Of a stretch of DNA of 64,000 bases, positions 10,086 through 58,876 are shown in pieces. Where the stretch lies: contig NZ_CP041238.1 in assembly GCF_013488225.1 (NCBI RefSeq), positions 2,567,501 through 2,631,500 on the forward strand, given 5' to 3'. Source of the stretch: Sinorhizobium mexicanum (GTDB lineage: Bacteria > Pseudomonadota > Alphaproteobacteria > Rhizobiales > Rhizobiaceae). The position numbers and the translations under genes are program-made. Numbering within the stretch: the first letter of the stretch is position 1; each line of letters opens with the position of its first letter. The notes under the pieces are model-generated. The model saw only the letters and a program-made list of their open reading frames with translations. It was not told where the DNA came from and made no database searches.

Positions 10086-10877
10086 CTAGAACCGCGCCAC
10101 GAGGCCGAGAATTGGACCCTGCTGCACGACGTCGAATACGAATCCGTCATTGCTGTAGTCCACCCCGAGGGCACGGTAGCCGGCCACTGCCGAAACCGTG
10201 TCGCTGAACCGATAGCCGATCGCGGCGGCGACGTCCCAGTCAAGATCGGCCTGCCCGGCGCCGATCAGGCCCCATCCAGTCAGATAGATTTCCGGCGTCA
10301 ACGAATAGGTGCCGCGAAATCCGGCCAATCCATCCACCCACGTGGCGTCGTCCTTCCTGGAAACCCCATCGAGAAGGCCGCCGCTGAAGGAAAGCTCGCT
10401 TTCGACCGACCACACGCGTAGACCGCCGACGATATCAATCCGCGCGGAACTGTCTTCAAAGAGGGCGTAGCCGACGCCGAGCAACCCGGCGAAGGTTTCG
10501 GACGAAAGTTCGACGTCGTCCGCGAGGATACCCCTCGGCGTTCCATCTTGGCCTGATATCTTCGTGTACATCGCGTCGCCGAAGATGCTGTAGGGTCCGT
10601 AGCGGGCCTCGCCGATGGCCATGGCGCCGAAATCGAGATGATCGAAGATATCGCTGAAGCTCGCGTCGACATGGGATTCCGGCAATGCGAATTGTGCTAC
10701 GTCTCCGGACAGGCCCGCCGCCCAGAAATAGGGCGCGAATGAAAACGTCCAGCCGCTGTCCGTGGTCGTCTGCTGAACCTCAGGGGTCATTGGAGAATAG
10801 ATATCTGCCGCCCAGGCACCTCCGGCGATAAGACAGCTACCGATAGACGCCAGCGTTCGAATGATGCACGAGCCCAT
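10086..10877 (-). CDS. Outer-membrane beta-barrel protein, exported
   Basis: A 263-residue protein with a Sec signal peptide (M-G-S-C-I-I-R-T-L-A-S...G-G-A-W-A-A-D; cleavage near residue 24). The mature part alternates aromatic and glycine residues in strands typical of 8-strand barrels: W-T-F-S-F-A-P-Y-F-W-A-A-G-L, G-D-A-M-Y-T-K-I, A-G-L-L-G-V-G-Y, W-D-V-A-A-A-I-G-Y-R-F. It ends in the barrel C-terminal signature G-L-V-A-R-F with terminal Phe. The ATG at 10877 follows AGGGGGA. The frame is open to 10982, but the signal peptide fixes the start. It is single and divergent from the DUF3604 operon. Function is unknown. Confidence 0.8.
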   Translation of the reverse strand: MGSCIIRTLASIGSCLIAGGAWAADIYSPMTPEVQQTTTDSGWTFSFAPYFWAAGLSGDVAQFALPESHVDASFSDIFDHLDFGAMAIGEARYGPYSIFGDAMYTKISGQDGTPRGILADDVELSSETFAGLLGVGYALFEDSSARIDIVGGLRVWSVESELSFSGGLLDGVSRKDDATWVDGLAGFRGTYSLTPEIYLTGWGLIGAGQADLDWDVAAAIGYRFSDTVSAVAGYRALGVDYSNDGFVFDVVQQGPILGLVARF

Positions 10878-11211
10878 TGTTCCCCCTGATTTTCGATCAC
10901 TCGATGACCCTGGCTTCGCCAAGTCGAACGAGTCAACGTGGACGAATGTTCGCAAGCAAGCTGTCTTTCGCCCGAAGCACAAGCTATCGGAGTATTAGCT
11001 GAAAATCAAAAGACATCTCTGCCTTAAATCAGGGACATTCCCGTGACGCTTCGGCTGAAAGGCGGACGCGAGCAAAGCCCGCTGAACCATCCGAGTGGGC
11101 TATTGTCGTTGGGTATTAAATCTGCAACAACTAGCCGCAATACTACTCTGCATATCCATGCAGCTCGCATTGCAATTCACCGCAGGTTCCGCCGAGGGAA
11201 GGATGCATACG

Positions 11212-13419
11212 ATGTGCCGGATGAACAGACGACCATTCTTGCTTTCTTCAACAATCCTCGTTTTTGCCGCTACGTCCGTCGTCGCGCAGGAGCGCCACGC
11301 CTTTTTCGGGCAGACCCACCAGCACACGAGTTGGTCGCTGGATGCTTACATCATCGGCAACACGGTCACTGGGCCGGAGGAGGCCTACCAATACTCGATG
11401 GGGCGGACCATCAAGCATCCTGCGGGCTACGACGTGCAGATCAAGACGCCCCTCGATTTCCAAGGCGTTACGGATCATTCCGAGTATGTCGGCGTCGTCC
11501 GACTTGCCAACGATCCGACCTCGTCGATCAGCAAGCTTCCCGTTGCCGCGAAGCTGAAGGTCACCAAAGACAACGGCCCGATGAAAATCTTCCAATGGAT
11601 GGCTGGAAGTATCGCCAGCGGTAAACCCATCCCGGAACTGCTGGACCCAAAGCTCACCGGTTCGGTGTGGAGTCAGAACACTGCCATTGCCGACAAGTAC
11701 AATAAGCCGGGGCAATTCACGACCTTCTGTTCGTACGAGTGGACGTCGATGCCCAATAATCAGAACATGCACCGCAATGTTTTCTTCAAGGATTGTTCCA
11801 AATTACCGGAGGCTCCGTTCTCCGCGATTGAGTCCGACCACCCGGAGGACCTTTGGAACTGGATGGACGGCCAGCGCAAGGCGGGGAACGATGTGCTCGC
11901 CATTTCGCACAATGCCAACCTGTCCAACGGCATCATGTTTCCGACCGATGTGGACAGCAAGGGCAATCCGTTGGATGCGGCCTGGGCACAGCAGCGCATG
12001 ACCAACGAGCCTCTGACCGAGATCAAACAGGTGAAGGGCGTCTCAGAAACCCACCCCGATCTCTCGCCCAATGACGAATTCGCCAATTACGAGATCATGA
12101 ATTACCTCATCGGCCTCGACAACAGCACCTCGAAACTACACGGGAGCTATACGCGAGAAGCCTATGAAAACGGCCTGGCGATGCAGGCGACGCGTGGGTA
12201 CAACCCGTACAAATTCGGTGTGGTTGGCGCAGGCGACTCGCACAACACCGTGACCGCCTACTCGCAATCGAACTTTTTCGGCGCTCATGGTCTGGTCGAT
12301 GCCACGCCGGAAGCTCGTCTTGCGGGTAAGGTGGCGTCCGGCATGAACATCCTGCAGACCGGAACCTCGGGTCTGACGGTCGTCTGGGCGGAGGAGAACA
12401 CCCGCGAGTCGATCTTCGCCGCGATGCAGCGCAAGGAAGTCTATGGCACGAGTGGCGTGCGTATCCAGGCACGCATGTTCGGCGGATGGGATTATGACAA
12501 GGGACTTCTGGCGGATGCCGACTGGCCGAAGACTGCCTACGCCAGTGGCGTGCCGATGGGCGGCGATCTACCGGCGGCCGAGGGCAAGGTTCCCTCCTTC
12601 GTCGTCGCGGCGGTCAAAGACCCGGCGGACGGAAATCTCGACCGGATACAGATCATCAAGGGATGGACCAAACACGGCCAGGTTTTCGAGAAGGTTTTCG
12701 ACGTCGCCTGGTCCGGCACTCGCCAGCCCGATCCTGCGAGCGGCAAGCTGCCTCCTGTCGGCAGCACCGTCGACATCACCAAGGCAACCTACACCAACGA
12801 CATCGGTTCGGTGGAACTCAAGGCGGTCTGGACGGACCCGGAGTTCGATCCCAGCCTGCACGCTTTCTATTACGCACGCGTGCTGCAGATTCCGACGCCG
12901 CGCTGGAGCACCTACGATGCCGTGAAGCTCGGTATCCTGCCGCCGAGCAATGCGCCCGCCACCGTGCAGGAACGCGCCTGGACGACGCCGATCTGGTACA
13001 CGCCGACGCCAGGGCAGATCGCAAAGGGTGCACGTGGCCTGATGGTTGCCGATCTGACCAAATCTGGATCCACGGCCCTGACCGACGATCAACTGAAACA
13101 ACTCATCGTCGGCAAGGCTTTCAGAGTTCGCAACACGGTGACGGACGAGAACTTCCAGGTCTTGTTCGGTGACGATGGACAGCGCATCGTGACGCAGCTC
13201 AACGACGGCCCGCCCAAAGCAGACGACCTGCTGCAGGTCATGCACACGCCCATCTCGGGATCGACGGCGGCCTATGAAATCCGTGACGGTCACATCGTCA
13301 CGACGATCGACGGGACACCGTTCGAACTGACCGTCTATAGCTCCGGCGACAAATACATCGCCGCTCGCAGCAATGAGTTCGGCTACGCGAACTACGAGGT
13401 GCAGGCCGTGGTGCAGTGA
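11212..13419 (+). CDS. DUF3604 protein, exported PHP-like metal-dependent hydrolase
   Basis: About 735 residues. The signal peptide M-N-R-R-P-F-L-L-S-S-T-I-L-V-F-A-A-T-S ends at V-V-A-Q, so it acts in the periplasm. The mature start F-F-G-Q-T-H-Q-H-T-S-W-S-L-D-A carries the paired-His metal motif, and further ligands lie in G-V-T-D-H-S-E-Y-V, A-I-S-H-N-A-N-L and G-A-G-D-S-H-N. These are the hallmarks of DUF3604, whose substrates are not established. The ATG at 11212 has AGGGAAGG about nine bases upstream; 11203 and 11221 are alternatives. Downstream genes follow within 25 bases or overlap (parvulin isomerase, HupE/UreJ), forming an operon that looks conserved in organisation. Role in the operon is inferred. 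Confidence 0.87.
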   Translation: MCRMNRRPFLLSSTILVFAATSVVAQERHAFFGQTHQHTSWSLDAYIIGNTVTGPEEAYQYSMGRTIKHPAGYDVQIKTPLDFQGVTDHSEYVGVVRLANDPTSSISKLPVAAKLKVTKDNGPMKIFQWMAGSIASGKPIPELLDPKLTGSVWSQNTAIADKYNKPGQFTTFCSYEWTSMPNNQNMHRNVFFKDCSKLPEAPFSAIESDHPEDLWNWMDGQRKAGNDVLAISHNANLSNGIMFPTDVDSKGNPLDAAWAQQRMTNEPLTEIKQVKGVSETHPDLSPNDEFANYEIMNYLIGLDNSTSKLHGSYTREAYENGLAMQATRGYNPYKFGVVGAGDSHNTVTAYSQSNFFGAHGLVDATPEARLAGKVASGMNILQTGTSGLTVVWAEENTRESIFAAMQRKEVYGTSGVRIQARMFGGWDYDKGLLADADWPKTAYASGVPMGGDLPAAEGKVPSFVVAAVKDPADGNLDRIQIIKGWTKHGQVFEKVFDVAWSGTRQPDPASGKLPPVGSTVDITKATYTNDIGSVELKAVWTDPEFDPSLHAFYYARVLQIPTPRWSTYDAVKLGILPPSNAPATVQERAWTTPIWYTPTPGQIAKGARGLMVADLTKSGSTALTDDQLKQLIVGKAFRVRNTVTDENFQVLFGDDGQRIVTQLNDGPPKADDLLQVMHTPISGSTAAYEIRDGHIVTTIDGTPFELTVYSSGDKYIAARSNEFGYANYEVQAVVQ

Positions 13420-13444
13420 GGAAGGCGTCGGGGAGACGGCTACC

Positions 13445-14416
13445 ATGAAACTGTTTCCGATTGCACCTGAACCCTCGACCGAACCAGTCGACGACATGGT
13501 GAACAGCAAGTGGCAAAACGTTCTCCGCGAGCCGCTGCTGCACTTCCTCGTTGTTGGTTGCGTACTATTCGGCGGCTACCACTTCCTCAATCCCGGACAG
13601 GAAGAGGCGGCTGAAGCGCAAGAGATCGTGTTGACCAAGGACGATGTGCGGCAACTGGCGATTAGCTGGCTGGCGCAGGGACGGTCGGCTCCCACGCCCG
13701 AGCAGATTATTGGCTTGGCGGAGCAAAAGGTCACCCAGGAAATCCTCTTCCGCGAAGCCGTAGCCCTTGGGCTCGACCGGGACGACGAGGTGGTGAAACG
13801 CAGGCTCGCCCAGAAGATGGACTTCCTTGCCGCCGATGTGGCGACATTGCAGGAGCCGACCACCGAGCAACTGAAGACCTGGTTCAGTGTCAATTCGGGG
13901 CGATTCGCGCTGCCTGCGCATGCAAGCTTCCGGCATCTGTATTTCTCGCCCGACAAGCACGGCAAGGCAGCCCGCGTGGCTGCGGATGCCGCACTTGCGA
14001 GAATCGGCGGACGGCCGCCGGAGGAAGCTGCCGCCGTCGGCGACCCCTTCATGTTCCAGAGCCATTACCGGAACGCCACCCCCGAACAGATGGCGAAGGA
14101 GTTCGGGCCAGCGTTCTCCGAGGCGCTGTTTCAGCTCACGCCCGGCAAGTGGGAGGGACCTATCCAATCCGGATATGGATGGCATCTCGTCTGGGTCGAC
14201 GCCATGGAGCCCGGCCGCGTTCCGGCATTCACGGAGGTTATTCCCAGCGTCAAGGCCGGGTGGATCGAAGACCAATATCGCGAGATAAGACGCATTGCGT
14301 TGGATGAGATGCGGTCCCGATATGTCGTCACCGTTCCTGAGATCGACGCCACCGACCTCCGAGACCTGCGGGTGCCCGCTGGAGCCGGCGCTCAGTTCGA
14401 AGTGCCCACACAATGA
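13445..14416 (+). CDS. Membrane-anchored parvulin-type peptidyl-prolyl isomerase
   Basis: A 323-residue protein with a single N-terminal membrane segment (L-L-H-F-L-V-V-G-C-V-L-F-G-G-Y, about residues 33-50), then a helical SurA-like N-domain and a parvulin core. Core motifs are A-S-F-R-H-L-Y-F-S, A-F-S-E-A-L-F-Q-L-T-P-G-K-W-E-G-P-I and Q-S-G-Y-G-W-H-L-V-W-V. The domain should face the periplasm and fold exported clients. It begins 25 bases after the DUF3604 stop, and its stop overlaps the next start (ATGA), so translation is coupled. A foldase next to a large exported metalloenzyme suggests dedicated maturation (inference). The ATG at 13445 fits the hydrophilic N-tail before the membrane span. 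Confidence 0.88.
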   Translation: MKLFPIAPEPSTEPVDDMVNSKWQNVLREPLLHFLVVGCVLFGGYHFLNPGQEEAAEAQEIVLTKDDVRQLAISWLAQGRSAPTPEQIIGLAEQKVTQEILFREAVALGLDRDDEVVKRRLAQKMDFLAADVATLQEPTTEQLKTWFSVNSGRFALPAHASFRHLYFSPDKHGKAARVAADAALARIGGRPPEEAAAVGDPFMFQSHYRNATPEQMAKEFGPAFSEALFQLTPGKWEGPIQSGYGWHLVWVDAMEPGRVPAFTEVIPSVKAGWIEDQYREIRRIALDEMRSRYVVTVPEIDATDLRDLRVPAGAGAQFEVPTQ

Positions 14417-15438
14417 GCCTACGAATCCTGTTGCCAGCGACGCTTTGGCATTTGCTTGGCTGCCTCGCCCTAGCCGTTTTTGCGTCGACGTTGAACGCTG
14501 CTGCCCACGAGATACGGCCCGCCTACCTGCAGATCGATGAGACCGCCCCAGGCCGTTACACGGTCACATGGCGCACCCCCATCTTCTCCGGAATGCGCCT
14601 TCCGGTTGTTCTGCGATTTCCGGAGGGCGTACGCAACGTGACGGCTCCGGCAGTCCGCGACCTTCCGGATTCGCTTGTCGAAACGCGTCTGATCGAGACA
14701 GTCGATGGAAGTCTTTCCGACAAACGGATCGAGTTTGTCGGACTGGAAGCGACGATCACCAACGTCCTGGTGCGCGTGCATTCGCTTGAGGGCCTGGTCA
14801 CCACCGAGATGGTCCACCCGTCCCAGCCCTGGGTCGAGATTGCTGCTCGCCCTGAACGTCTCGATGTCGCCAGGACTTTCATTGCCCATGGCATAGAGCA
14901 CATCCTGTTCGGCTACGATCATTTGCTGTTCGTGCTGGCGTTGATCCTGATCGCGCGCGACTGGCGCGCACTGCTGTTGACGGTCACCGCATTTACCCTT
15001 GCCCATTCCATCACGCTCACGCTGGCGACACTGGGATTCGTCAACGTCCCCGGTCCCCCCGTCGAAGCGGCGATCGCCTTTAGCATCCTGCTGCTTGCAT
15101 GCGAGATCATTCGCATCGACCGCGGTCAGCCCAGTTTGACGGCGCGACGGCCATGGCTGGTCGCCTTTGCCTTCGGACTGTTGCACGGGTTGGGGTTTGC
15201 CGGTGCGCTGGCGGATCTGGCGCTTCCCAAGAGCGATATCCCCTTCACCCTGCTGTTCTTCAACGTCGGCGTCGAGCTCGGGCAACTATTGTTCATCGCG
15301 GCGGTGATCGCGATTGTCGCAGCCCTGAGGTTGGCCTTGCAGTCGATCCTGGACGGTCGCGCGGCATATCTCGCCTCAACTTACGCGGTCGGCGCGATGG
15401 CATCGTTCTGGTTCATCGAGCGCGTGGCAGCATTTTGA
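14413..15438 (+). CDS. HupE/UreJ-family membrane protein with large N-terminal periplasmic domain
   Basis: A 341-residue protein. A signal peptide ends near A-A-A-H-E, and mature His is followed by a ~135-residue periplasmic beta-rich domain (E-I-R-P-A-Y-L-Q-I-D-E). Next come about six membrane helices with HupE/UreJ signatures: G-I-E-H-I-L-F-G-Y-D-H-L-L-F-V, F-T-L-A-H-S-I-T-L and G-L-L-H-G-L-G-F-A-G. The conserved His/Asp in H-x(4)-G-x-D-H resemble the metal-binding helix of nickel/cobalt transporters; HupE and UreJ are linked to nickel uptake. The start overlaps the isomerase stop by four bases. No hydrogenase or urease gene is present here, so the metal is more likely meant for the DUF3604 enzyme (inference). 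Confidence 0.88.
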   Translation: MSLRILLPATLWHLLGCLALAVFASTLNAAAHEIRPAYLQIDETAPGRYTVTWRTPIFSGMRLPVVLRFPEGVRNVTAPAVRDLPDSLVETRLIETVDGSLSDKRIEFVGLEATITNVLVRVHSLEGLVTTEMVHPSQPWVEIAARPERLDVARTFIAHGIEHILFGYDHLLFVLALILIARDWRALLLTVTAFTLAHSITLTLATLGFVNVPGPPVEAAIAFSILLLACEIIRIDRGQPSLTARRPWLVAFAFGLLHGLGFAGALADLALPKSDIPFTLLFFNVGVELGQLLFIAAVIAIVAALRLALQSILDGRAAYLASTYAVGAMASFWFIERVAAF

Positions 15439-15489
15439 AGCGGCAGACGCGGCATAAACCAATGGCCAGTATCAAGGAGGAACAACGCC

Positions 15490-16140
15490 ATGCAGTTCAA
15501 ACTGGAATCTTTGGGTTTGGCGATCACGCTTGCGCTGGTGGTGATCGGGGGCGCATCGGCACAGGAACAGCAGAATGCCATCAGGGCTCCGGCGACGAAG
15601 ACGATTGGATCGGCAAAGCCCCAGGTTGAGCCGTCATTGATCGTACTCAATTCGAAGGGAGCAAGCATGAAGGACGGTAAACTCGTCCTGACCGGGGTAT
15701 CGCCCAATTCAATCGTTTTCGCCGACCGGCCGGTGCGGGCGGCGGGCCACGTGCTCACCGCACACCTCATCGAAGAATGGGGTTCCGGCAAGGACAGTTT
15801 TGCGGCCGATCCTCCCAATGCGACCGTGTCCGTACTCAGCAAGGACGGTGGTGACGTTGTTGACGCAGTCGTCACATTGGATGCGCCGAAGATGGAAGGG
15901 GACGAGCTGACTTTCAACGTCAATGTGCTGGAAGGCAGCCTCGAGGGCGGCGACGGGCCGGCATCGACCTTCATCGACATCATCGGCATGCCGCTCACCC
16001 CGCGTTCCTTCGCGGGCGTTGCCCGCCGAACCGCAGTCCGGGGGGCCTGGTATGGCGGCGCTGTCGCCGGAGCGGCCATGGCGGCTCCGTATTATGGGCG
16101 GCCAGCCTGCGGTTATTATCCCTATCCGCCCTGCTACTGA
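15490..16140 (+). CDS. Secreted protein with Gly/Tyr/Pro-rich tail, last gene of DUF3604 operon
   Basis: A 216-residue protein with a clear signal peptide (L-A-I-T-L-A-L-V-V-I-G-G-A-S-A-Q). The middle has alternating beta-type stretches (D-G-K-L-V-L-T-G-V-S; H-V-L-T-A-H-L-I-E-E-W), then a short hydrophobic A/G segment (G-G-A-V-A-G-A-A-M-A-A) and a tail Y-Y-G-R-P-A-C-G-Y-Y-P-Y-P-P-C-Y with two cysteines. It is unrecognised. CAAGGAGG lies before the ATG, 51 bases after the HupE stop. The tail could be a metal-binding or surface-exposed element; this is speculation from composition only. Confidence 0.75.
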   Translation: MQFKLESLGLAITLALVVIGGASAQEQQNAIRAPATKTIGSAKPQVEPSLIVLNSKGASMKDGKLVLTGVSPNSIVFADRPVRAAGHVLTAHLIEEWGSGKDSFAADPPNATVSVLSKDGGDVVDAVVTLDAPKMEGDELTFNVNVLEGSLEGGDGPASTFIDIIGMPLTPRSFAGVARRTAVRGAWYGGAVAGAAMAAPYYGRPACGYYPYPPCY

Positions 16141-18044: not shown

Positions 18045-18635
18045 TCAGCGGGAATGCATGGCAGTGCGACTGAGAATGCTCCAGAAAGGACGTTTTATTT
18101 CCACCAGCGGCCGACCGCGATCACCGGCCTTGAGACCGTCCCGAATCAAGGCAGCCAGATCCTTTTGAACCGCCGGGTCGGACAAGAAATAGCTATGCCC
18201 CGCAAAGCCCGAAATGCCCTTGTATTCGATAAAGTCGGCGATGCCCGACATCTGCGAATTCTTCCACAGCGCGCTCGAGCCCGCCTCTTTGGAGTCGATG
18301 CTCGCGCTGGTCAGACGCCCCAGTCGAACAACGCTTCCGAACAGCCCGCTCGAAATGGCAAGCGCCTGGTCGTTGGGGGACGAATACACGGTCAGATGCA
18401 GCGCACCTATGCGCGGCAAGAGGCCGTAGGGGCTTGCGGCCTGCCGCCGTCGTTCGTTCACGTCCTCGATCACGCTCGTCGCATCATAGGCCTCGCGCGC
18501 CTGCCGGAGCTGCATTTCGAGCGCCTTCAACCCCGCTTCCGTGACCAGGTTCGGATGGGGTGAAATCGGTCGATCGGGCAGCAGGGTTTCCGCAGCCGTT
18601 TCGGCACTTTCTTCCTTGACGAAGGCAACGCTCAA
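18045..18635 (-). CDS. Chimeric ORF: GreA N-terminal coiled coil fused to C-terminus of DUF900 hydrolase
   Basis: An intact 196-codon frame from the same TTG start as the greA paralogue. Residues 1 to about 67 equal the GreA N-part (N-L-V-T-E-A-G-L-K-A-L-E; N-E-R-R-R-Q-A-A-S). From P-Y-G-L-L-P-R-I-G onward it equals the last ~129 residues of the hydrolase at 21062. The junction is at 18429/18430, at GGCCGTAGGGGCTTGCGG. Over about 380 bp the hydrolase part differs from the full copy by about one base, and the greA part by about three in 207. It lacks the GreA C-terminal domain and the hydrolase Ser260, so it is probably non-functional for either activity. It was likely created by recent recombination. 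Confidence 0.75.
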   Translation of the reverse strand: MSVAFVKEESAETAAETLLPDRPISPHPNLVTEAGLKALEMQLRQAREAYDATSVIEDVNERRRQAASPYGLLPRIGALHLTVYSSPNDQALAISSGLFGSVVRLGRLTSASIDSKEAGSSALWKNSQMSGIADFIEYKGISGFAGHSYFLSDPAVQKDLAALIRDGLKAGDRGRPLVEIKRPFWSILSRTAMHSR

Positions 18636-18692
18636 GATCGGACTCCATTCAGACGCGGCGGCTCTTGCAGGGCATGGGGACAGCCCCTGTTG

Positions 18693-18729
18693 TATTCCGA
18701 TCGCGCTGACCGTCGGAAACATCGTATAA
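18693..18729 (+). repeat. 37-bp block, inverted counterpart of 9568-9605
   Basis: The core GCTGACCGTCGGAAACATCG is the reverse complement of the block near greA, while the right flank ACGCGGCCCTTGGCAAGG matches the greA flank in direct orientation. It lies about 60 bases upstream of the chimeric ORF start, where a promoter would sit. Confidence 0.7.
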
Positions 18730-20964: not shown

Positions 20965-21064
20965 TCATTTCACTGTTTCATTGAAACAGTGAAATGATCT
21001 AACTCTTTGAAACTACGCAATTCCGGACGGAAAACCGTTACACACTTTTCCTGGAATTGCTCTA
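20965..21064 (+). repeat. Palindromic repeat pair: TTTCACTGTTTCA dyad plus GGACGGAAAACCG hairpin
   Basis: A 33-bp near-perfect palindrome (TCATTTCACTGTTTCA-t-TGAAACAGTGAAATGA) is followed by GCAATTCCGGACGGAAAACC, with ACACTTTTCCTGGAATTGC completing the second hairpin, ending CTCTAG. The final CTA forms the TAG stop of the leftward hydrolase gene. Relatives occur at 26350-26543, 37603-37706 (inverted) and 39096-39199, and a decayed one at 34433-34540. Confidence 0.9.
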
Positions 21065-22423
21065 GCGGGAATGCATGGCAGTGCGACTGAGAATGCTCCA
21101 GAAAGGACGTTTTATTTCCACCAGCGGCCGACCGCGATCACCGGCCTTGAGACCGTCCCGAATCAAGGCAGCCAGATCCTTTTGAACCGCCGGGTCGGAC
21201 AAGAAATAGCTATGCCCCGCAAAGCCCGAAATGCCCTTGTATTCGATAAAGTCGGCGATGCCCGACATCTGCGAATTCTTCCACAGCGCGCTCGAGCCCG
21301 CCTCCTTGGAGTCGATGCTCGCGCTGGTCAGACGCCCCAGTCGAACAACGCTTCCGAACAGCCCGCTCGAAATGGCAAGCGCCTGGTCGTTGGGGGACGA
21401 ATACACGGTCAGATGCAGCGCACCTATGCGCGGCAAGAGGCCGTAGGGCGTTGCCTTTGCTCCGTAGGGCGTATCGGGATCGGATATGAAGCCGAACAAT
21501 TTTGTCGTGGCAACATCCAGATCGATGTCAGGAGCGAACAGCACGGCATTGGCGATTTTGTAGCGCTCGGCCGGCGAAGACCGCGCGGCATAGGCCTCCA
21601 TTCCAAGTTGCCCAAGGGCGGACAACAGAACGTCTGCGCCGCGGCTGTGCGCGATGAAGTGGAGGCGTCTGACACCCTTGGTCGCTGAAATGATGCGAAC
21701 CGCCTTCTTGACATCCGCTACCGCGAACTCGCCGGACTCGCGGTCGATATTATAACCGTAGAAAGCGCCGCCGGTGCCGCCCGCCGGCCATGAAAGCGAC
21801 ACGCACACAAACTCCCTAGAAAGGGCGTTGCATATCTTGCCGGTGGCCTTGGCGGCATCGTCGAAACTGTTGGCATAACCATGAATGAAGATGACCACTT
21901 CCTTGCGCTTCGCGGTCGCAAGCCGCCGGGCCACCTCGCCCTGCAGCCCCGCGACGGCTCGCGTGTGGGCATCTACGGTTGCGCGCGCCCGACGGGGCCC
22001 CTCAGGCGTGAGTTCGATCGGGTACGGCGATTGCGGAAATTGGCCGAGCTTGGTCGTATGTGAAACACGCAGCGAGCCGTCATGCTGTCCCGTTGCCCCA
22101 CCGTGGAAACGCGACCGCTCCGGAACAAGCGTAACGGAACCGAAGCTCAGCGAATGACCCCGAACCGCGCTGTAGGCGGGTTCGCCATTGGCGGAAGCGG
22201 TAGGCGCTCGATCAGTGACGTAAAGGATATCGAGGGGACTATCGTCTTTGACACTGGAAGCAGCGGCCTTTGGCTGAGCCCCCAGGTCGCCGACCAGGTC
22301 CTTTTCACTCAGGCAGGCAGAGAGGACGAGAATGCACGGGAGCAATAAAAAAGTCAGGATTATTCGCAACAGCCGACCGAACGGGCAATATTTCTTCAGC
22401 TTTATTTTGAAAAGTATCTCCAT
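21062..22423 (-). CDS. DUF900-type alpha/beta hydrolase lipoprotein
   Basis: A 453-residue protein. The N-terminal membrane segment ends in the lipobox L-S-A-C37, so it is predicted to be a lipoprotein. The alpha/beta-hydrolase fold shows V-V-I-F-I-H-G-Y-A-N-S (oxyanion region, residues 177-186), the nucleophile in A-H-S260-R-G-A-D, a likely acid in L-F-A-P-D-I-D, and a late histidine in F-A-G-H-S-Y-F. DUF900 proteins are exported esterase/lipase-like enzymes of unknown substrate. An internal duplication T-P-Y-G-A-K-A-T-P-Y-G coincides with the recombination point used in the chimera at 18045. The stop codon lies in a palindromic repeat. The ATG at 22423 is the first before the signal sequence. 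Confidence 0.85.
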   Translation of the reverse strand: MEILFKIKLKKYCPFGRLLRIILTFLLLPCILVLSACLSEKDLVGDLGAQPKAAASSVKDDSPLDILYVTDRAPTASANGEPAYSAVRGHSLSFGSVTLVPERSRFHGGATGQHDGSLRVSHTTKLGQFPQSPYPIELTPEGPRRARATVDAHTRAVAGLQGEVARRLATAKRKEVVIFIHGYANSFDDAAKATGKICNALSREFVCVSLSWPAGGTGGAFYGYNIDRESGEFAVADVKKAVRIISATKGVRRLHFIAHSRGADVLLSALGQLGMEAYAARSSPAERYKIANAVLFAPDIDLDVATTKLFGFISDPDTPYGAKATPYGLLPRIGALHLTVYSSPNDQALAISSGLFGSVVRLGRLTSASIDSKEAGSSALWKNSQMSGIADFIEYKGISGFAGHSYFLSDPAVQKDLAALIRDGLKAGDRGRPLVEIKRPFWSILSRTAMHSR

Positions 22424-44279: not shown

Positions 44280-46028
44280 TTAGAGAGGCAGCGGTATCTT
44301 CTTGAGAGCGTTCGCCAGCGATTGCACTGACGCGGGTCGAAAAGGCCCCATTCGAGTGAAGGCGCTGATTGTGAAAGACGGTGCGAGCTCGATCAGGCGC
44401 TTTGCCGCCACTCGTGCCGCGTCGAAATTGCCCAACTCGACATATGCCGCCGCGAGGTAGGCGTAGGTGACGCTGAAGTTCGGGTTCGCGCCAACGGCGA
44501 GCGCTGCATAGGTGGCGGCCTCCTCGAACCGGCCACTGAACCAGTGGGCCAACGTCAGCGCACAGTACGGGTGATAGTTCAAGGGATCGAACGGACTGAG
44601 CCTCAACGCAAGCAGTGCATGCTCGATGGCTCTTTCATTTCGCTGGCAATGGGCATTCACCAAGGCACTAAAGCCGTATGCGAGCGCCGAATTGTGATTG
44701 AGCTCCAGCGACCGATCCAGAACAAGAATGGCCGCTTCGTAGTCATGCGTGAGATTGGCCTGGACAAAGGCGGCGATGCTCAGGACCTGCGGGTCATCGA
44801 CGCCAAAGTTGAACGCAGCATTGCAGTGTTCCAGCGCGAGGGATTTATCTCGTTCATCGAGGCCACCGCGAAAGTAACTTTGCTCACGGCACCACGCCGC
44901 ATAGGCATGTGCAAGTGCATAGTTCGGGTCGCGCTTCAGCGCCTCCTCCAACAGTTGCAGCGCTTTTTGGGCTTCAGCAGGTGAATTCGCATGGGTGTGG
45001 GGAAGTGCTTTCAAATACAGATCGTAGGCGTCTAGTGTATCTGGCCGTTTTCGGAGCGCTCGTTCAATTTCAGCGCGGCGCATTGACGGCTCCAACGCAC
45101 CGACGATGCTCGTTACGAAACGGTCTTGAAGGTCAAACAAGTCCTCGGCGAAGCCCTCGAGCCTGTCCGCCCATACATGAGTCGCACCCGCCCCCTCCAC
45201 AAGCTGTCCCGTGATGCGGATTCGGTTGGCAGATTGTCGGACGCTGCCTTCAAGCACGTAGCGTACGCCCAGATCTCGTGCGACTTGCTTCACATCGACC
45301 GACCTGCCTTTGTAGGAAAAGCTCGAGTTACGCGCGATCACGAAGAGGCTGTGAATCTTGGCCAGTTCAGTAATGAGATCGTCGACCAGGCCGTCGGCGA
45401 AATAGTCTTGCCGCGGATCGCCGCTCATGTTTTCAAACGGCAACACCGCAATTGACGGTCGTTTCGGCAGAGCAAAGGGCGTGTCGATCAGGTTGGCTGC
45501 TTTCGGCGTCTGCTTCCCTAAGTGAAGCTGATAAACGCGGATCGGTCGGGTGATGTTCTTGAGGTGCTGGTCTCCGGTGTCTTCGAACGCGATGTCCAGC
45601 CGTTCTCGGACAAGATCGCGCACCGCGGCCGACACGGCGATGCCGCCTGGTCTTGCCACTCCCTCCAGCCTTGACGCAACGTTCACGCCGTCGCCGAAAA
45701 TGTCACCGTTCTCCAGGATGACGTCTCCCAGATTGATGCCGATCCGAAATTCAATGCGGCGATCTGGTGGGATTGGGTCATTACGAACAATCATCGCGCG
45801 TTGTATGTCGACAGCACATGCGACCGCGTCCAATACACTTTGGAACTCGGCGAGAATGCCGTCGCCGATGAATTTGACCACCCGGCCGCTGTGCTCTGCA
45901 ATCTTTGGATTGAGGAGCTCGCTTTGGTGAGTCATCAACGAAGTGAGCGTACCGGGTTCATCGGCCTCCATGAGCCGACTGAAGCCAACGACGTCAGCGG
46001 CGAGGATCGCGGCCAGCCTGCGGTCCAT
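44280..46028 (-). CDS. Class III nucleotide cyclase with TolB-like and TPR domains
   Basis: A 582-residue cytoplasmic protein common in rhizobia in many copies. The N-terminal cyclase domain has D12 (L-A-A-D-V-V-G-F-S-R), D56 (F-I-G-D-G-I-L-A-E-F) and G-D-G-V-N-V-A-S-R-L. Then comes the TolB-N-like segment S-I-A-V-L-P-F-E-N-M-S-G-D-P (about 190-300). The C-terminal ~280 residues are tetratricopeptide repeats (A-L-K-R-D-P-N-Y-A-L-A-H-A-Y, S-L-E-L-N-H-N-S-A-L-A-Y). The TPR part likely binds a regulatory partner. The ATG at 46028 has GGAGGAG seven bases upstream; 46052 and 46106 lack this. It converges on the 42899 cyclase. Confidence 0.92.
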   Translation of the reverse strand: MDRRLAAILAADVVGFSRLMEADEPGTLTSLMTHQSELLNPKIAEHSGRVVKFIGDGILAEFQSVLDAVACAVDIQRAMIVRNDPIPPDRRIEFRIGINLGDVILENGDIFGDGVNVASRLEGVARPGGIAVSAAVRDLVRERLDIAFEDTGDQHLKNITRPIRVYQLHLGKQTPKAANLIDTPFALPKRPSIAVLPFENMSGDPRQDYFADGLVDDLITELAKIHSLFVIARNSSFSYKGRSVDVKQVARDLGVRYVLEGSVRQSANRIRITGQLVEGAGATHVWADRLEGFAEDLFDLQDRFVTSIVGALEPSMRRAEIERALRKRPDTLDAYDLYLKALPHTHANSPAEAQKALQLLEEALKRDPNYALAHAYAAWCREQSYFRGGLDERDKSLALEHCNAAFNFGVDDPQVLSIAAFVQANLTHDYEAAILVLDRSLELNHNSALAYGFSALVNAHCQRNERAIEHALLALRLSPFDPLNYHPYCALTLAHWFSGRFEEAATYAALAVGANPNFSVTYAYLAAAYVELGNFDAARVAAKRLIELAPSFTISAFTRMGPFRPASVQSLANALKKIPLPL

Positions 46029-46122
46029 GGACGCTCTCCTCCGGGATTGCATCAGGCAGCATGCCATAGAATTTATTTTAGGGCATTCAAAATTAAGGGT
46101 ATTCAAAATCCGCTCTTTGCGC

Positions 46123-53610: not shown

Positions 53611-55047
53611 ATGGAATTGACACGCCGTGCCGTCGCATTGGGGGGATCCGGTTTGCTCGCCAGTGCCGCATTTTCACCCGCGAATGCCTTGGAGTCCCCG
53701 CTCATCGACCCCGTCGAGGCGGCCGATGAGTTCTGGCTGGCCGTCGACGCCTACATCTACGGCTACCCGCTCGTAACGACGGAAATGACCCGCCGGGTCA
53801 TCACCAATGTCGAAAAGCCCGAGGGCAGCAAGGGCCCGATGGGCCACATCATCAAGCTTCGCGAATACCCGAATGCGTCCTTCAAGGACGTTACGGCGCC
53901 GAACGCCGACACCCTCTATACGACCGCGTTCATCGACGTGGCGAAGGAGCCATGGGTGCTGTCGATCCCGGATATGAAGGATCGCTACTTCCTGTTTCCG
54001 ATGCTCGATGGGTGGACAACGGTGTTTCAGGTGCCGGGAAAACGAACGACCGGCGACGGCGCGCAATCCTACGCGATCACGGGCCCCGGCTGGCAGGGCG
54101 ATATTCCCGATGGTGTCACCGAGTACAAGTCGCCGACGGGCATCGTCTGGATTCTCGGCCGGATCTATTGCGACGGCACGGCGGAAGATTACAAGGCCGT
54201 CCATGAATTGCAGGATCAGTGCAAGCTGGTGCCGCTCAGCGCCTACGGCAAGGACTGGACCCCACCGCCTGCCAAGGTCGATCCGAGCATCGACATGAAG
54301 ACCGCAGTGCGCGAGCAGGTCAACCGCATGGATGCGATCGAATATTTCACCCTGCTGAGCGAACTCTTGAAAACCAATCCGCCGACAGCCGCGGATGCGG
54401 ACATGGTGGCGAAATTCGCACAAATCGGCATCGTCCCGGGCCAGGACTTCGACAAAAGCAAGCTGGACGCTGCCTTCATCAAGCGGATTCCCGAGATCGC
54501 CTTCCACCGCATCATGCTGCATTTCAAGTTCAGCGACGGGGACGTCAAGGACATCAACGGCTGGGGTTACACCACCAGGACCGGCATCTACGGTGACAAT
54601 TACCTCCAGCGGGCCCTCGTAACGGCCATAGGGCTCGGGGCCAACCGCCCGCAGGACGCCGTCTATCCGACCTCGCTGAAATCGAAGGACGGCCTTTTTT
54701 CTCGTGCCTATCACGGGACGAACAAGTACGTGCTGACCTTCCCCAAGGGACACCTGCCGCCCGTCCGGGGCTTTTGGTCGATCACGATGTACAACGACAA
54801 GTACTTCTTCGTCGACAACCCGATCAACCGCTACTCGATCAGCGCAAGGCAGGATCTCAAGGTGAATGCGGACGGGTCGACGGATATCTACATCCAGAAC
54901 GAATCCCCCGGTGCAGACAAGGAGGCCAACTGGCTGCCGGCGCCAAAGGAAAAGTTCATCCTGATGATGCGGCTCTACTGGCCCGACGACAGCCCGCCGT
55001 CCATTCTGGATGGTTCGTGGGTCATCCCGCCGGTCAGGAAGGCGTGA
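53611..55047 (+). CDS. Exported DUF1254/DUF1214 protein
   Basis: A 478-residue protein with signal M-E-L-T-R-R-A-V-A-L-G-G-S-G-L-L-A-S-A-A (twin Arg). DUF1254: Y-I-Y-G-Y-P-L-V-T-T-E-M-T and P-N-A-D-T-L-Y-T-T-A-F-I-D. DUF1214 at the end: G-F-W-S-I-T-M-Y-N-D-K-Y-F-F, N-R-Y-S-I and Y-I-Q-N-E-S-P-G, W-L-P-A-P. The pair is common in soil bacteria and associated with xenobiotic or lipid stress, but function is not established. GGAGG is seven bases before the ATG. It follows the amidohydrolase by 137 bases. Confidence 0.9.
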   Translation: MELTRRAVALGGSGLLASAAFSPANALESPLIDPVEAADEFWLAVDAYIYGYPLVTTEMTRRVITNVEKPEGSKGPMGHIIKLREYPNASFKDVTAPNADTLYTTAFIDVAKEPWVLSIPDMKDRYFLFPMLDGWTTVFQVPGKRTTGDGAQSYAITGPGWQGDIPDGVTEYKSPTGIVWILGRIYCDGTAEDYKAVHELQDQCKLVPLSAYGKDWTPPPAKVDPSIDMKTAVREQVNRMDAIEYFTLLSELLKTNPPTAADADMVAKFAQIGIVPGQDFDKSKLDAAFIKRIPEIAFHRIMLHFKFSDGDVKDINGWGYTTRTGIYGDNYLQRALVTAIGLGANRPQDAVYPTSLKSKDGLFSRAYHGTNKYVLTFPKGHLPPVRGFWSITMYNDKYFFVDNPINRYSISARQDLKVNADGSTDIYIQNESPGADKEANWLPAPKEKFILMMRLYWPDDSPPSILDGSWVIPPVRKA

Positions 55048-57265: not shown

Positions 57266-58876
57266 GTGAATACGCTCGCGGCCACGAAGTTTCCGCCCGG
57301 CCTTGGCCGGGTAACGATCGCCGTTCTGGCCTGGCTTTTCCTGGCGACGGCGGCGCTTGCCCATGCGTCGCTGACCGCGACCGAGCCGCGGGATGGCGCG
57401 GTCGTTCCCACTTCGCCCACAACACTTGCGCTGTCGTTCAGCGAGCCGGTGTCACCTCTGGCGTTGAAACTGGTCAAGCCGGATGGTTCCGCGGTCGCGC
57501 TCGAGCGGTTTTCGCTCCGGGATCGCACGGTGGAAATCGAGGTGCCGCCCGGCCTTACCGCCGGCACGCACGTCCTTTCCTGGCGCGTCGTCTCCGAAGA
57601 CGGACATCCGGTCAGCGGCTCGATCCTTTTTTCCATAGGCTCGCCGAGCGGGTCGACTTATGCCGGCGAAGCGATCGACTGGCCGGTGCGCGCTGCGCTC
57701 TGGACAAGCCGTGTCGCGCTCTATGCCGGTCTTTTTTTCGGCATCGGCGGCGTCTTCGCCTTGAGCTGGCTCCTGCAGGGCGCGCGAGCCGGGCGGCGGT
57801 TCATTGCGGCAATGCTTGGCATCGGGCTTGCGGGAACGGCTCTTTCCGCCGGGTTTCAGGGACTGGACGCGCTCGGCAGACCGCTTTCGGCGCTGGCTGA
57901 GCCCTCGGCGTGGTCGACAGGACTCGGAACAAGTTTCGGCAAGACGGTCATCGTGATGACCGTCGCGCTCGCCCTTGCAGGCGTTGCGCTCGTCTCGCGC
58001 CGCGAGCAGCTCGCGCGGTGGATTTCACTCACGGCACTGATCGCGGGTTCGCTGGCTCTCTCCCTCAGCGGCCACGCCAGCGCCGCCGAGCCGCAATGGC
58101 TGATGCGCCCGAGCGTCTTCCTGCATGCAATCACGATCGCGCTGTGGGTCGGCGCCCTGGTGCCCATCGCAAGACTGCTCCAGGCCGGCCACCCGCATGC
58201 ACTGAAGGCGCTGCATCGCTTCTCGGTTTTCATCCCCTTCTCAGTCGCCGTTCTCGTGGCGGCAGGCATCGTGCTGCTGATCGTGCAGGTGGGGCAGCCC
58301 TCGGCACTCCTCGATACGGCCTATGGCAATATCTTTCTCGTCAAGCTCGCTCTCCTCGTCGTGCTTTTCGCCCTGGCCGCAATCAATCGATGGGTGCTGA
58401 CCGACCGCGTCGAAGCCGGCGATCGAGGCGCCGCCCGGCATCTCGTGCACTCGATCGCTGCCGAGACGCTGCTGGTGCTGCTGGTTTTCGGCGTGACGGC
58501 TTCGTGGCGTTTCACGCCGCCGCCGCGAGCCCTCGTGACGGTCGCCGCGGAGCCCGCCTCGGTCCACATTCACGGGGAAAAGGCGATGGCGGAAATAACC
58601 ATCACACCGGGCCAACCGGGACCGGTCGAAGCCTCTGCCCTTGTCATGGACGGCGACTTTTCTGCCCTTGACCCGAAGGAGGTCACCTTCGTCTTCTCCA
58701 ACCCGTCCGCCGGCGTCACCGAGATAAAGCGCAAGGCCAGCAAGGCCGCGGACGGAACATGGCGGACCTCCGACCTCCTGCTGCCCCTCCCCGGCCTCTG
58801 GAAAGTCCGGCTCGACATATTGATCAGCGATTTCGAGATCGCCCGGATCGAGGGGGAAATCCAGATCGGGCCGTAG
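57266..58876 (+). CDS. CopC-CopD fusion (YcnJ-like) copper transport protein
   Basis: A 536-residue protein. After a signal peptide, the CopC domain starts at H-A-S-L-T-A-T-E-P-R-D-G (N-terminal His ligand) and ends near E-D-G-H-P-V-S-G-S. The CopD part follows with about eight membrane helices (W-T-S-R-V-A-L-Y-A-G-L-F-F-G-I-G-G, A-L-S-L-S-G-H-A-S-A-A). A C-terminal periplasmic beta domain (about 420-536) is added. The family imports copper into the cytoplasm. The start is GTG at 57266 with AGGATC seven bases before it. It is last in the copper set. Confidence 0.93.
   Translation: MNTLAATKFPPGLGRVTIAVLAWLFLATAALAHASLTATEPRDGAVVPTSPTTLALSFSEPVSPLALKLVKPDGSAVALERFSLRDRTVEIEVPPGLTAGTHVLSWRVVSEDGHPVSGSILFSIGSPSGSTYAGEAIDWPVRAALWTSRVALYAGLFFGIGGVFALSWLLQGARAGRRFIAAMLGIGLAGTALSAGFQGLDALGRPLSALAEPSAWSTGLGTSFGKTVIVMTVALALAGVALVSRREQLARWISLTALIAGSLALSLSGHASAAEPQWLMRPSVFLHAITIALWVGALVPIARLLQAGHPHALKALHRFSVFIPFSVAVLVAAGIVLLIVQVGQPSALLDTAYGNIFLVKLALLVVLFALAAINRWVLTDRVEAGDRGAARHLVHSIAAETLLVLLVFGVTASWRFTPPPRALVTVAAEPASVHIHGEKAMAEITITPGQPGPVEASALVMDGDFSALDPKEVTFVFSNPSAGVTEIKRKASKAADGTWRTSDLLLPLPGLWKVRLDILISDFEIARIEGEIQIGP

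Follow-up and report, generated by a model that had tools for sequence, protein, structure and literature searches.

Sequence surveys of a DUF3604, parvulin and HupE/UreJ-2 module in Sinorhizobium mexicanum: a candidate maturation pair for exported hydrolases

A stretch of 64,000 nucleotides from Sinorhizobium mexicanum (GCF_013488225.1, NZ_CP041238.1:2,567,501-2,631,500; hereafter the window, to which all positions refer) contains three consecutive genes coding for an exported protein of the DUF3604 family, a parvulin of the PpiC type and a permease of the HupE/UreJ-2 type. Judged from their sequences, the three form a module, called here the cassette, which recurs in several bacterial phyla. 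The explanation that we favour, in which we place slightly less than even confidence, is that the foldase and a metal-capturing permease are a dedicated maturation pair for exported DUF3604 hydrolases, often in trans. According to this proposal, DUF3604 would cross the inner membrane, mostly unfolded through Sec, and the membrane-anchored parvulin would hold or fold it at the outer face. HupE, with a mature chain predicted to start with a metal-binding histidine, would capture a transition metal, which would then fill the metal site of DUF3604, and a single PpiC-HupE pair could act on several DUF3604 enzymes whose genes lie elsewhere in the genome.

The preliminary description of this DNA reported four co-directional genes, the last of them coding for an exported protein with a Gly/Tyr-rich tail (Table 1). 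The spacings given, 25, -4 and 51 bases, are exact, and the signal or membrane anchor assigned to all four products agrees with the N-termini read by eye. It was also stated that hydrogenase and urease are absent nearby and, in fact, neither family was found among the 38 open reading frames (ORFs) of the window scanned with Pfam. The dN/dS values of the core genes, 0.07 for DUF3604, 0.25 for the parvulin and 0.19 for HupE in comparison with the relative L172, the DUF3604 of which is 93% identical, indicate purifying selection (genomes and loci are cited by G and L numbers). Since these values are low and the linkage recurs in several phyla, the arrangement is more than chance.

Linkage unique to this strain had been named as the observation that would count against the operon, and such a strain oddity is ruled out by the surveys of Pseudomonadota, GTDB loci and Alphaproteobacteria. 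Six annotated plasmid regions, opened from among 78 matching records (five from Rhizobiaceae and one from Rhodobacter), all hold DUF3604, a peptidylprolyl isomerase and HupE/UreJ; in two of them DUF3604 is separated from the isomerase by a further gene, about 400 aa long. In 200 Pseudomonadota genomes, 16 full-length DUF3604 matches were obtained in 9 genomes, 13 of them clustered with PpiC and HupE, while the three unclustered ones (two in G174, one in G075) belong to genomes with a cassette elsewhere. Moreover, every one of the 13 parvulins scoring above 150 bits in these genomes stands beside HupE and DUF3604, the latter reduced to a fragment in one case (G162), and the next best reaches 61 bits. 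Gene order varies, being PpiC-HupE-DUF3604 in G070 and convergent in G067.

The named loci are the best 80 of at least 579 DUF3604 relatives in GTDB contigs, fetched with up to 10 kb on each side of DUF3604, many contigs being short; their titles include Pseudomonadota, Bacteroidetes, Acidobacteria, Myxococcota and others. PpiC and HupE are adjacent to each other in 38 of these loci and flank DUF3604 on either side in two (L088, L097), three loci have one partner and 37 have neither. On a tree of 103 DUF3604 proteins (85 labelled), linked and unlinked states intermix with 20 changes, at least 17 of which are forced by supported branches, and linkage has therefore been gained and lost often. 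No constant extra partner was seen, the largest BLAST neighbour cluster comprising 16 of the 80 loci. Among the 25 families listed for each class of neighbours (out of 113 at linked and 152 at unlinked loci), the commonest Pfam family accounts for 5 of 100 flanking ORFs at linked loci and 3 of 118 at unlinked ones; these scans covered 100 of 149 and 118 of 126 ORFs, respectively, which were mechanically called and include some that are not genes.

Some individual loci were also recorded. The DUF3604 match of G162 (L017, L149) is a fragment with a stop, next to open PpiC and HupE genes, possibly a cassette after losing its enzyme. In G031 (L018, L146), a single ORF of about 330 aa combines a match to the beginning of DUF3604 with one to the end of HupE, as if a DUF3604-HupE fusion had been produced by deletion. 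Finally, the Flavobacteria-type loci L069, L070, L071 and L119 have only one PpiC-HupE pair for their three to five DUF3604 genes.

Co-occurrence was counted in 289 Alphaproteobacteria, with thresholds of at least 400 bits for DUF3604, 80 for the parvulin and 240 for HupE, set after seeing the lists. DUF3604 was found in 28 genomes and the parvulin in 27, with both in 26, so that the parvulin is present in 26 of the 28 DUF3604 genomes versus 1 of the 261 others; cassette-type HupE is present in 24 of the 28 versus none of the 261. Counted among these 261 are G335, where a DUF3604 fragment scores 175 bits, and genomes whose diverged relatives fall short of 400 bits, and the parvulin scores leave no wide gap near the threshold (159, 139, 133, 92, 83, 82 and 70 bits). 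The Fisher values, 1.4e-33 for DUF3604 with the parvulin and 2.9e-31 for DUF3604 with HupE, ignore shared ancestry, the genomes having been drawn evenly over the larger group and carrying mostly different family labels. The 28 genomes contain at least 63 DUF3604 matches versus 34 parvulins, the former being a lower bound since at most four candidates were scored per genome. These gene counts were read by hand. Beside DUF3604 lie 31 of these 34 parvulins, and three (in G348, G229 and G433) lie away from it.

The same partners were sought in trans for the partnerless loci, 23 of 37 of which were followed to whole genomes; some contigs end shortly past DUF3604, and a near partner was possibly missed there. 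The parvulin (at least 90 bits) was found in 21 of the 23 genomes and HupE (at least 280 bits) in the same 21, the pair being adjacent in 19 of them and apart in G214 and G216. The proposal of a maturation pair is favoured because the two genes overlap by 4 bases in the window, mostly stay paired away from DUF3604 and are outnumbered by it. In addition, the numerical excess of DUF3604 over parvulins, together with the cohesion of the pair, fits helpers with several clients better than a one-to-one pathway.

As regards the enzyme, ten positions of DUF3604 (H36, H38, D44, D88, H89, E176, H187, H233, D342 and H344) are the same in all 41 aligned rows, and we take them to be the ligand pattern of trinuclear PHP enzymes. 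The paired-histidine motifs (HxH 36/38, DH 88/89 and DxH 342/344) are intact, as had been reported. A remote profile match to six CehA/McbA-type proteins (probability 97.7%, E 1.5e-12) spans E176 onward, with the first HxH motif outside, and the E, H and DxH ligand columns coincide. From these two lines of evidence, which are of sequence and not of structure, DUF3604 is probably a PHP-type metallohydrolase with a PHP-like metal site, which was the part of the earlier operon interpretation that stood, along with the three-gene linkage. The Pfam PHP domain PF02811 gave no match in the 41 members, one of which had a hit to PHP_C (E 0.22), and no match was obtained among the solved chains searched by sequence. 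DUF3604 is longer than CehA/McbA (NF038032), exported and tied to PpiC-HupE; membership of CehA/McbA proper was ruled out, an NCBIfam match being absent at E 0.1 (cut-off 80 bits).

The C-terminal extension of the window protein is present in L002, L003, L007 and L014 and absent from the other aligned members, while tblastn coverage suggests it also in L059-L068. The DUF3604 N-termini that were read by eye are mostly of Sec or lipoprotein type; the window protein has a twin-arginine-like NRRPFLL, which is missing from its nearest relatives. An assigned function for DUF3604 was not found in the literature searched, where, with subscription papers mostly outside, the name occurs once, as a table entry. 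The substrate class would most likely be phosphodiesters or related esters. A biochemical precedent is given by Sb-PDE of Sphingobium sp. TCM1, presented in PMC5460133 as an exported PHP phosphodiesterase of 441 aa with 2.1 Zn bound. It would have in common with DUF3604 the character of an exported PHP-type hydrolase, a Sec-type signal and a divalent metal; unlike DUF3604 it carries PF02811.

The parvulin belongs to a subfamily in which an EPLLHF motif is conserved, according to the alignments, in the N-terminal membrane anchor region. Two histidine positions, presumably the PpiC active-site residues, are both occupied in the window protein, and in the main subfamily the second is His in 32 of 32 members and the first in 20 of 32. 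NifM is a parvulin with one dedicated client; its similarity to the window parvulin is weak and its client different, and the possibility that the window protein is NifM was ruled out (TIGR02933, 30.6 bits, E 2.9e-7, versus a cut-off of 168.2). No parvulin relatives were found in the viral contigs searched.

The metal helix of the permease had been given as H-x4-G-x-D-H and has to be amended to H-x3-G-x-D-H (H163 to D169-H170), that is, H-x5-D-H, which we take to be the classical HupE/UreJ motif. The window HupE has this helix and a PF04955 match (38 bits) in common with the classical nickel permeases, from which it differs in its extra exported domain and in being tied to DUF3604 and not to hydrogenase or urease clusters. 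The HupE_UreJ_2 family was found in 53 of 200 Pseudomonadota genomes (42 above cut-off) and, since it is far commoner than the cassette, only part of it is tied to DUF3604. The residue following the predicted signal peptide, with cleavage read by eye, is His in 37 of 39 HupE rows, as it is in L051 and L056 among five further linked HupE.

HupE/UreJ-2 proteins with a mature N-terminal His have been described under the name of anglerases in PMC12537917, in the accessible text of which one such N-terminal domain binds copper (Kd 74 nM) and nickel (220 nM), and metal capture followed by import is proposed. Ang-1-HupE/UreJ-2 (PDB 9GCE) has in common with the window protein the PF13795 domain, an exported N-terminal domain and the predicted mature His start. 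Within that same text, the linker is placed at residues 176-184, versus the shorter N-terminal domain of about 125 aa here, and the neighbours mentioned are DUF4198, indigoidine A-like and PfkB. Neither PpiC nor isomerase occurs in the paper according to a search of its text, figures excepted, and the literature search for DUF3604 did not bring it up. When the HupE N-terminal domain was compared with PDB sequences, a set whose inclusion of 9GCE was unchecked, nothing significant was obtained with either of two alignments (best E 0.58 with that of the 39 HupE rows).

Weak DUF3604 matches led to a second, paralogous trio, in which a DUF3604 relative is joined by a parvulin and by a HupE some 400 aa long, in L139, L140, L141 (where the relative is cut by the contig end) and L142. 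The paralogue has 742-801 aa and 82-105 bits to PF12228; it aligns with DUF3604 at a profile probability of 99.9% and keeps the ten ligand positions in 4 of 4 rows. All 5 rows of its HupE read A-H where cleavage is predicted, and in G239 the DUF3604 relative (L145) and its pair (L144) lie on separate contigs. In the parvulins of this second cassette, each active-site-type position is His in only 1 of 5. Since these histidines are not always kept, some parvulins may act as chaperones without being fully active isomerases.

Several observations weigh against the maturation pair. The chief difficulty is one of direction: members of the HupE family are described as importers, which would not suit a client in the periplasm, and a metal imported to the cytoplasm would not obviously reach a Sec-exported DUF3604. 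Moreover, Sb-PDE was active when made in E. coli (PMC5460133), so exported PHP enzymes have no general need of such helpers. The mature-start residue is Asp in 2 of the 39 aligned HupE and in three of the five further linked ones (L050, L052, L058), and the first of the two parvulin histidines is replaced by Gln in 12 of 32. Among the Alphaproteobacteria, G267 and G408 have DUF3604 without a parvulin match or cassette-type HupE, in G382 and G474 the parvulin is present but no HupE reaches the 240 bits set for the cassette type, and in G394, which lacks DUF3604, both the parvulin and the HupE (175 bits) are partial. In the survey in trans, clear partners are lacking in G200 and G221. Chlamydia also has a DUF3604 protein, and the Chlamydiae row in a table excerpt from a 2009 survey, whose seeds may miss PF13795, holds dashes only. 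Finally, G122 has a diverged DUF3604-family member without a cassette. The surroundings of that gene (L148) contain, by eye, acyl-CoA, thiolase and dehydrogenase genes, resembling a lipid or steroid catabolic cluster.

The importing direction of HupE is respected by another explanation, which we consider unlikely, namely that DUF3604 acts in the periplasm on an organic ligand, ester or metallophore and, by cleaving it, frees a transition metal to be captured by the His domain of HupE and imported, while the parvulin folds one of the two proteins. This would match the capture and import proposed for anglerase permeases in the accessible text of PMC12537917, and TonB receptors occur near linked cassettes (4 of the 100 ORFs scanned, a count that stands without a background rate). 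Nevertheless, several genomes, such as G231 and G354, hold at least four DUF3604 per one parvulin, and metallophore or metal ABC importers are absent among the 25 families listed for each class of neighbours. Still less probable is that the three genes travel together for the catabolism of periplasmic esters, sulfates or phosphates, with HupE feeding cytoplasmic enzymes and having no direct tie to DUF3604. In its favour, linked cassettes lie near sulfatases (5 of 100 ORFs), Phenol_MetA_deg proteins (4 of 100) and a few phosphodiesterases, and unlinked DUF3604 near short-chain dehydrogenases (3 of 118) and enoyl-CoA hydratases (2 of 118); the sulfatases, phosphodiesterases and dehydrogenase-type genes weakly hint at ester breakdown. 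However, the co-occurrence holds where the genes are unlinked, and the paralogous trio repeats the same three families.

That the fourth gene completes a four-gene functional unit, as the structural or metal-binding partner assumed in the preliminary description, is very improbable: it immediately follows the cassette here and in G496 (L171), and lies up to about 3 kb downstream of HupE in L003, L007, L059 and L176, but it belongs to a very large family (at least 6255 homologues at E up to 0.001 among 8000 candidates scored, common in Rhizobiales-type genomes), occurs without DUF3604 and is scattered, and it was ruled out as a core partner by family size, genus survey and neighbourhoods. In the survey of 33 genomes of the genus, it stands beside the cassette in G000 and G496. 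G533 and G534, which have no DUF3604 match, nevertheless carry it, as does G532, likewise without DUF3604, in a weaker copy (99 bits); in G499 and G531 it lies on a different contig from DUF3604. The best copy of G493 is likewise on another contig, with a weaker one at least 44 kb away, and G494, whose cassette is the closest to that of the window (80-93% identical), has no match at all. It was found near the cassette at 5 of 12 distinct Rhizobiaceae loci (L003, L007, L059, L171 and L176; L060 and L174 seem to represent the same locus) and at none of the four compared loci outside Rhizobiaceae. On these sequence comparisons, the fourth gene is regarded as a facultative rhizobial neighbour. The divergent, possibly barrel-forming protein encoded upstream, with tblastn homologues near the cassette in L002, L003, L006, L007, L059 and L171, is likewise facultative. 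A further facultative partner may be the DUF1254/DUF1214 proteins, which recur beside or inside the cassette (L065:8954-10357, L176:5709-7403, L007 and L003, including an Edaphobacter locus). In Pseudomonas sp. GM48 (L061:12251-13288), the cassette is followed by a LacI-type regulator and, by eye, an MFS-like transporter, which hints at a small-molecule inducer.

With respect to the rest of the window, four direct repeats of 193-300 bases, 83-100% identical, cover two DUF2200 genes and pieces of a GreA/GreB-like gene and of the DUF900 hydrolase. These repeats, together with ORF 18045-18722, which looks by eye like a GreA/GreB-like and DUF900 fusion, point to a recent rearrangement. DUF900, TPR cyclase and DUF1254/DUF1214 genes are of the kinds flanking the cassette in Rhizobium plasmids (L002, L003, L007), and here they are scattered over the window. 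A CopC-CopD fusion at 57266-58876 joins another exported metal-related domain to a membrane domain. The Rfam search of the window gave no RNA-family match, and the promoter scan found 2 sites versus 1.8 expected, that is, no excess. Terminator-like sites numbered 8 versus 4.4 expected, and none was used in the interpretation. In the alignment of upstream regions, clear similarity was confined to the window and L172.

Table 1. Features of the cassette and its surroundings in the window
Feature	Position	Strand	Evidence
DUF3604 protein, 735 aa, exported	11212-13419	+	PF12228, 711 bits (cut-off 20.4; profile 2-591 of 591)
C-terminal extension of DUF3604, 137 aa, residues 599-735, past the end of the PF12228 match	13006-13416	+	Alignments, tblastn coverage
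PpiC-type parvulin, 323 aa, N-terminal membrane anchor	13445-14416	+	PF13145, 60.2 bits (cut-off 27); subfamily alignments
HupE/UreJ-2 permease, 341 aa, exported N-terminal domain	14413-15438	+	PF13795 (HupE_UreJ_2), 167.4 bits, residues 156-306 (cut-off 24.5)
Codon of His32, predicted first residue of mature HupE	14506-14508	+	Alignment of HupE proteins
Fourth gene, exported protein with Gly/Tyr-rich tail	15490-16140	+	No Pfam or NCBIfam match
Divergent exported protein, 269 aa, possibly an outer-membrane barrel (by eye)	10086-10895	-	No Pfam match; tblastn in relatives
Direct repeats	9244-9477/18428-18661; 16873-17172/20275-20574; 17766-17958/20717-20909; 18047-18346/21064-21363		
DUF900 hydrolase	21062-22423		
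TPR adenylate cyclase	44280-46106		
DUF1254/DUF1214 protein	53611-55047		

The component families are known, and the kind of system, a dedicated accessory operon of a metalloenzyme, is known as well. A description of the DUF3604-PpiC-HupE partnership was not found in the literature searched, from which subscription papers were mostly absent. More tentatively than the maturation role itself, it may be put forward that exported PHP metallohydrolases have a maturation system of two proteins that has so far escaped description, namely a membrane-anchored parvulin coupled to a histidine-capped permease. The two would fold their clients and load their metal outside the cytoplasm, serve several of them in trans and exist in two paralogous forms. 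A strict partnership predicts that both a metal and a foldase are needed for DUF3604, and that production of DUF3604 proteins in standard hosts, in the absence of their partners, may yield enzyme lacking metal or activity. If metal is indeed loaded after export, the pair would represent an unusual answer to the question of how exported metalloenzymes obtain the right metal.

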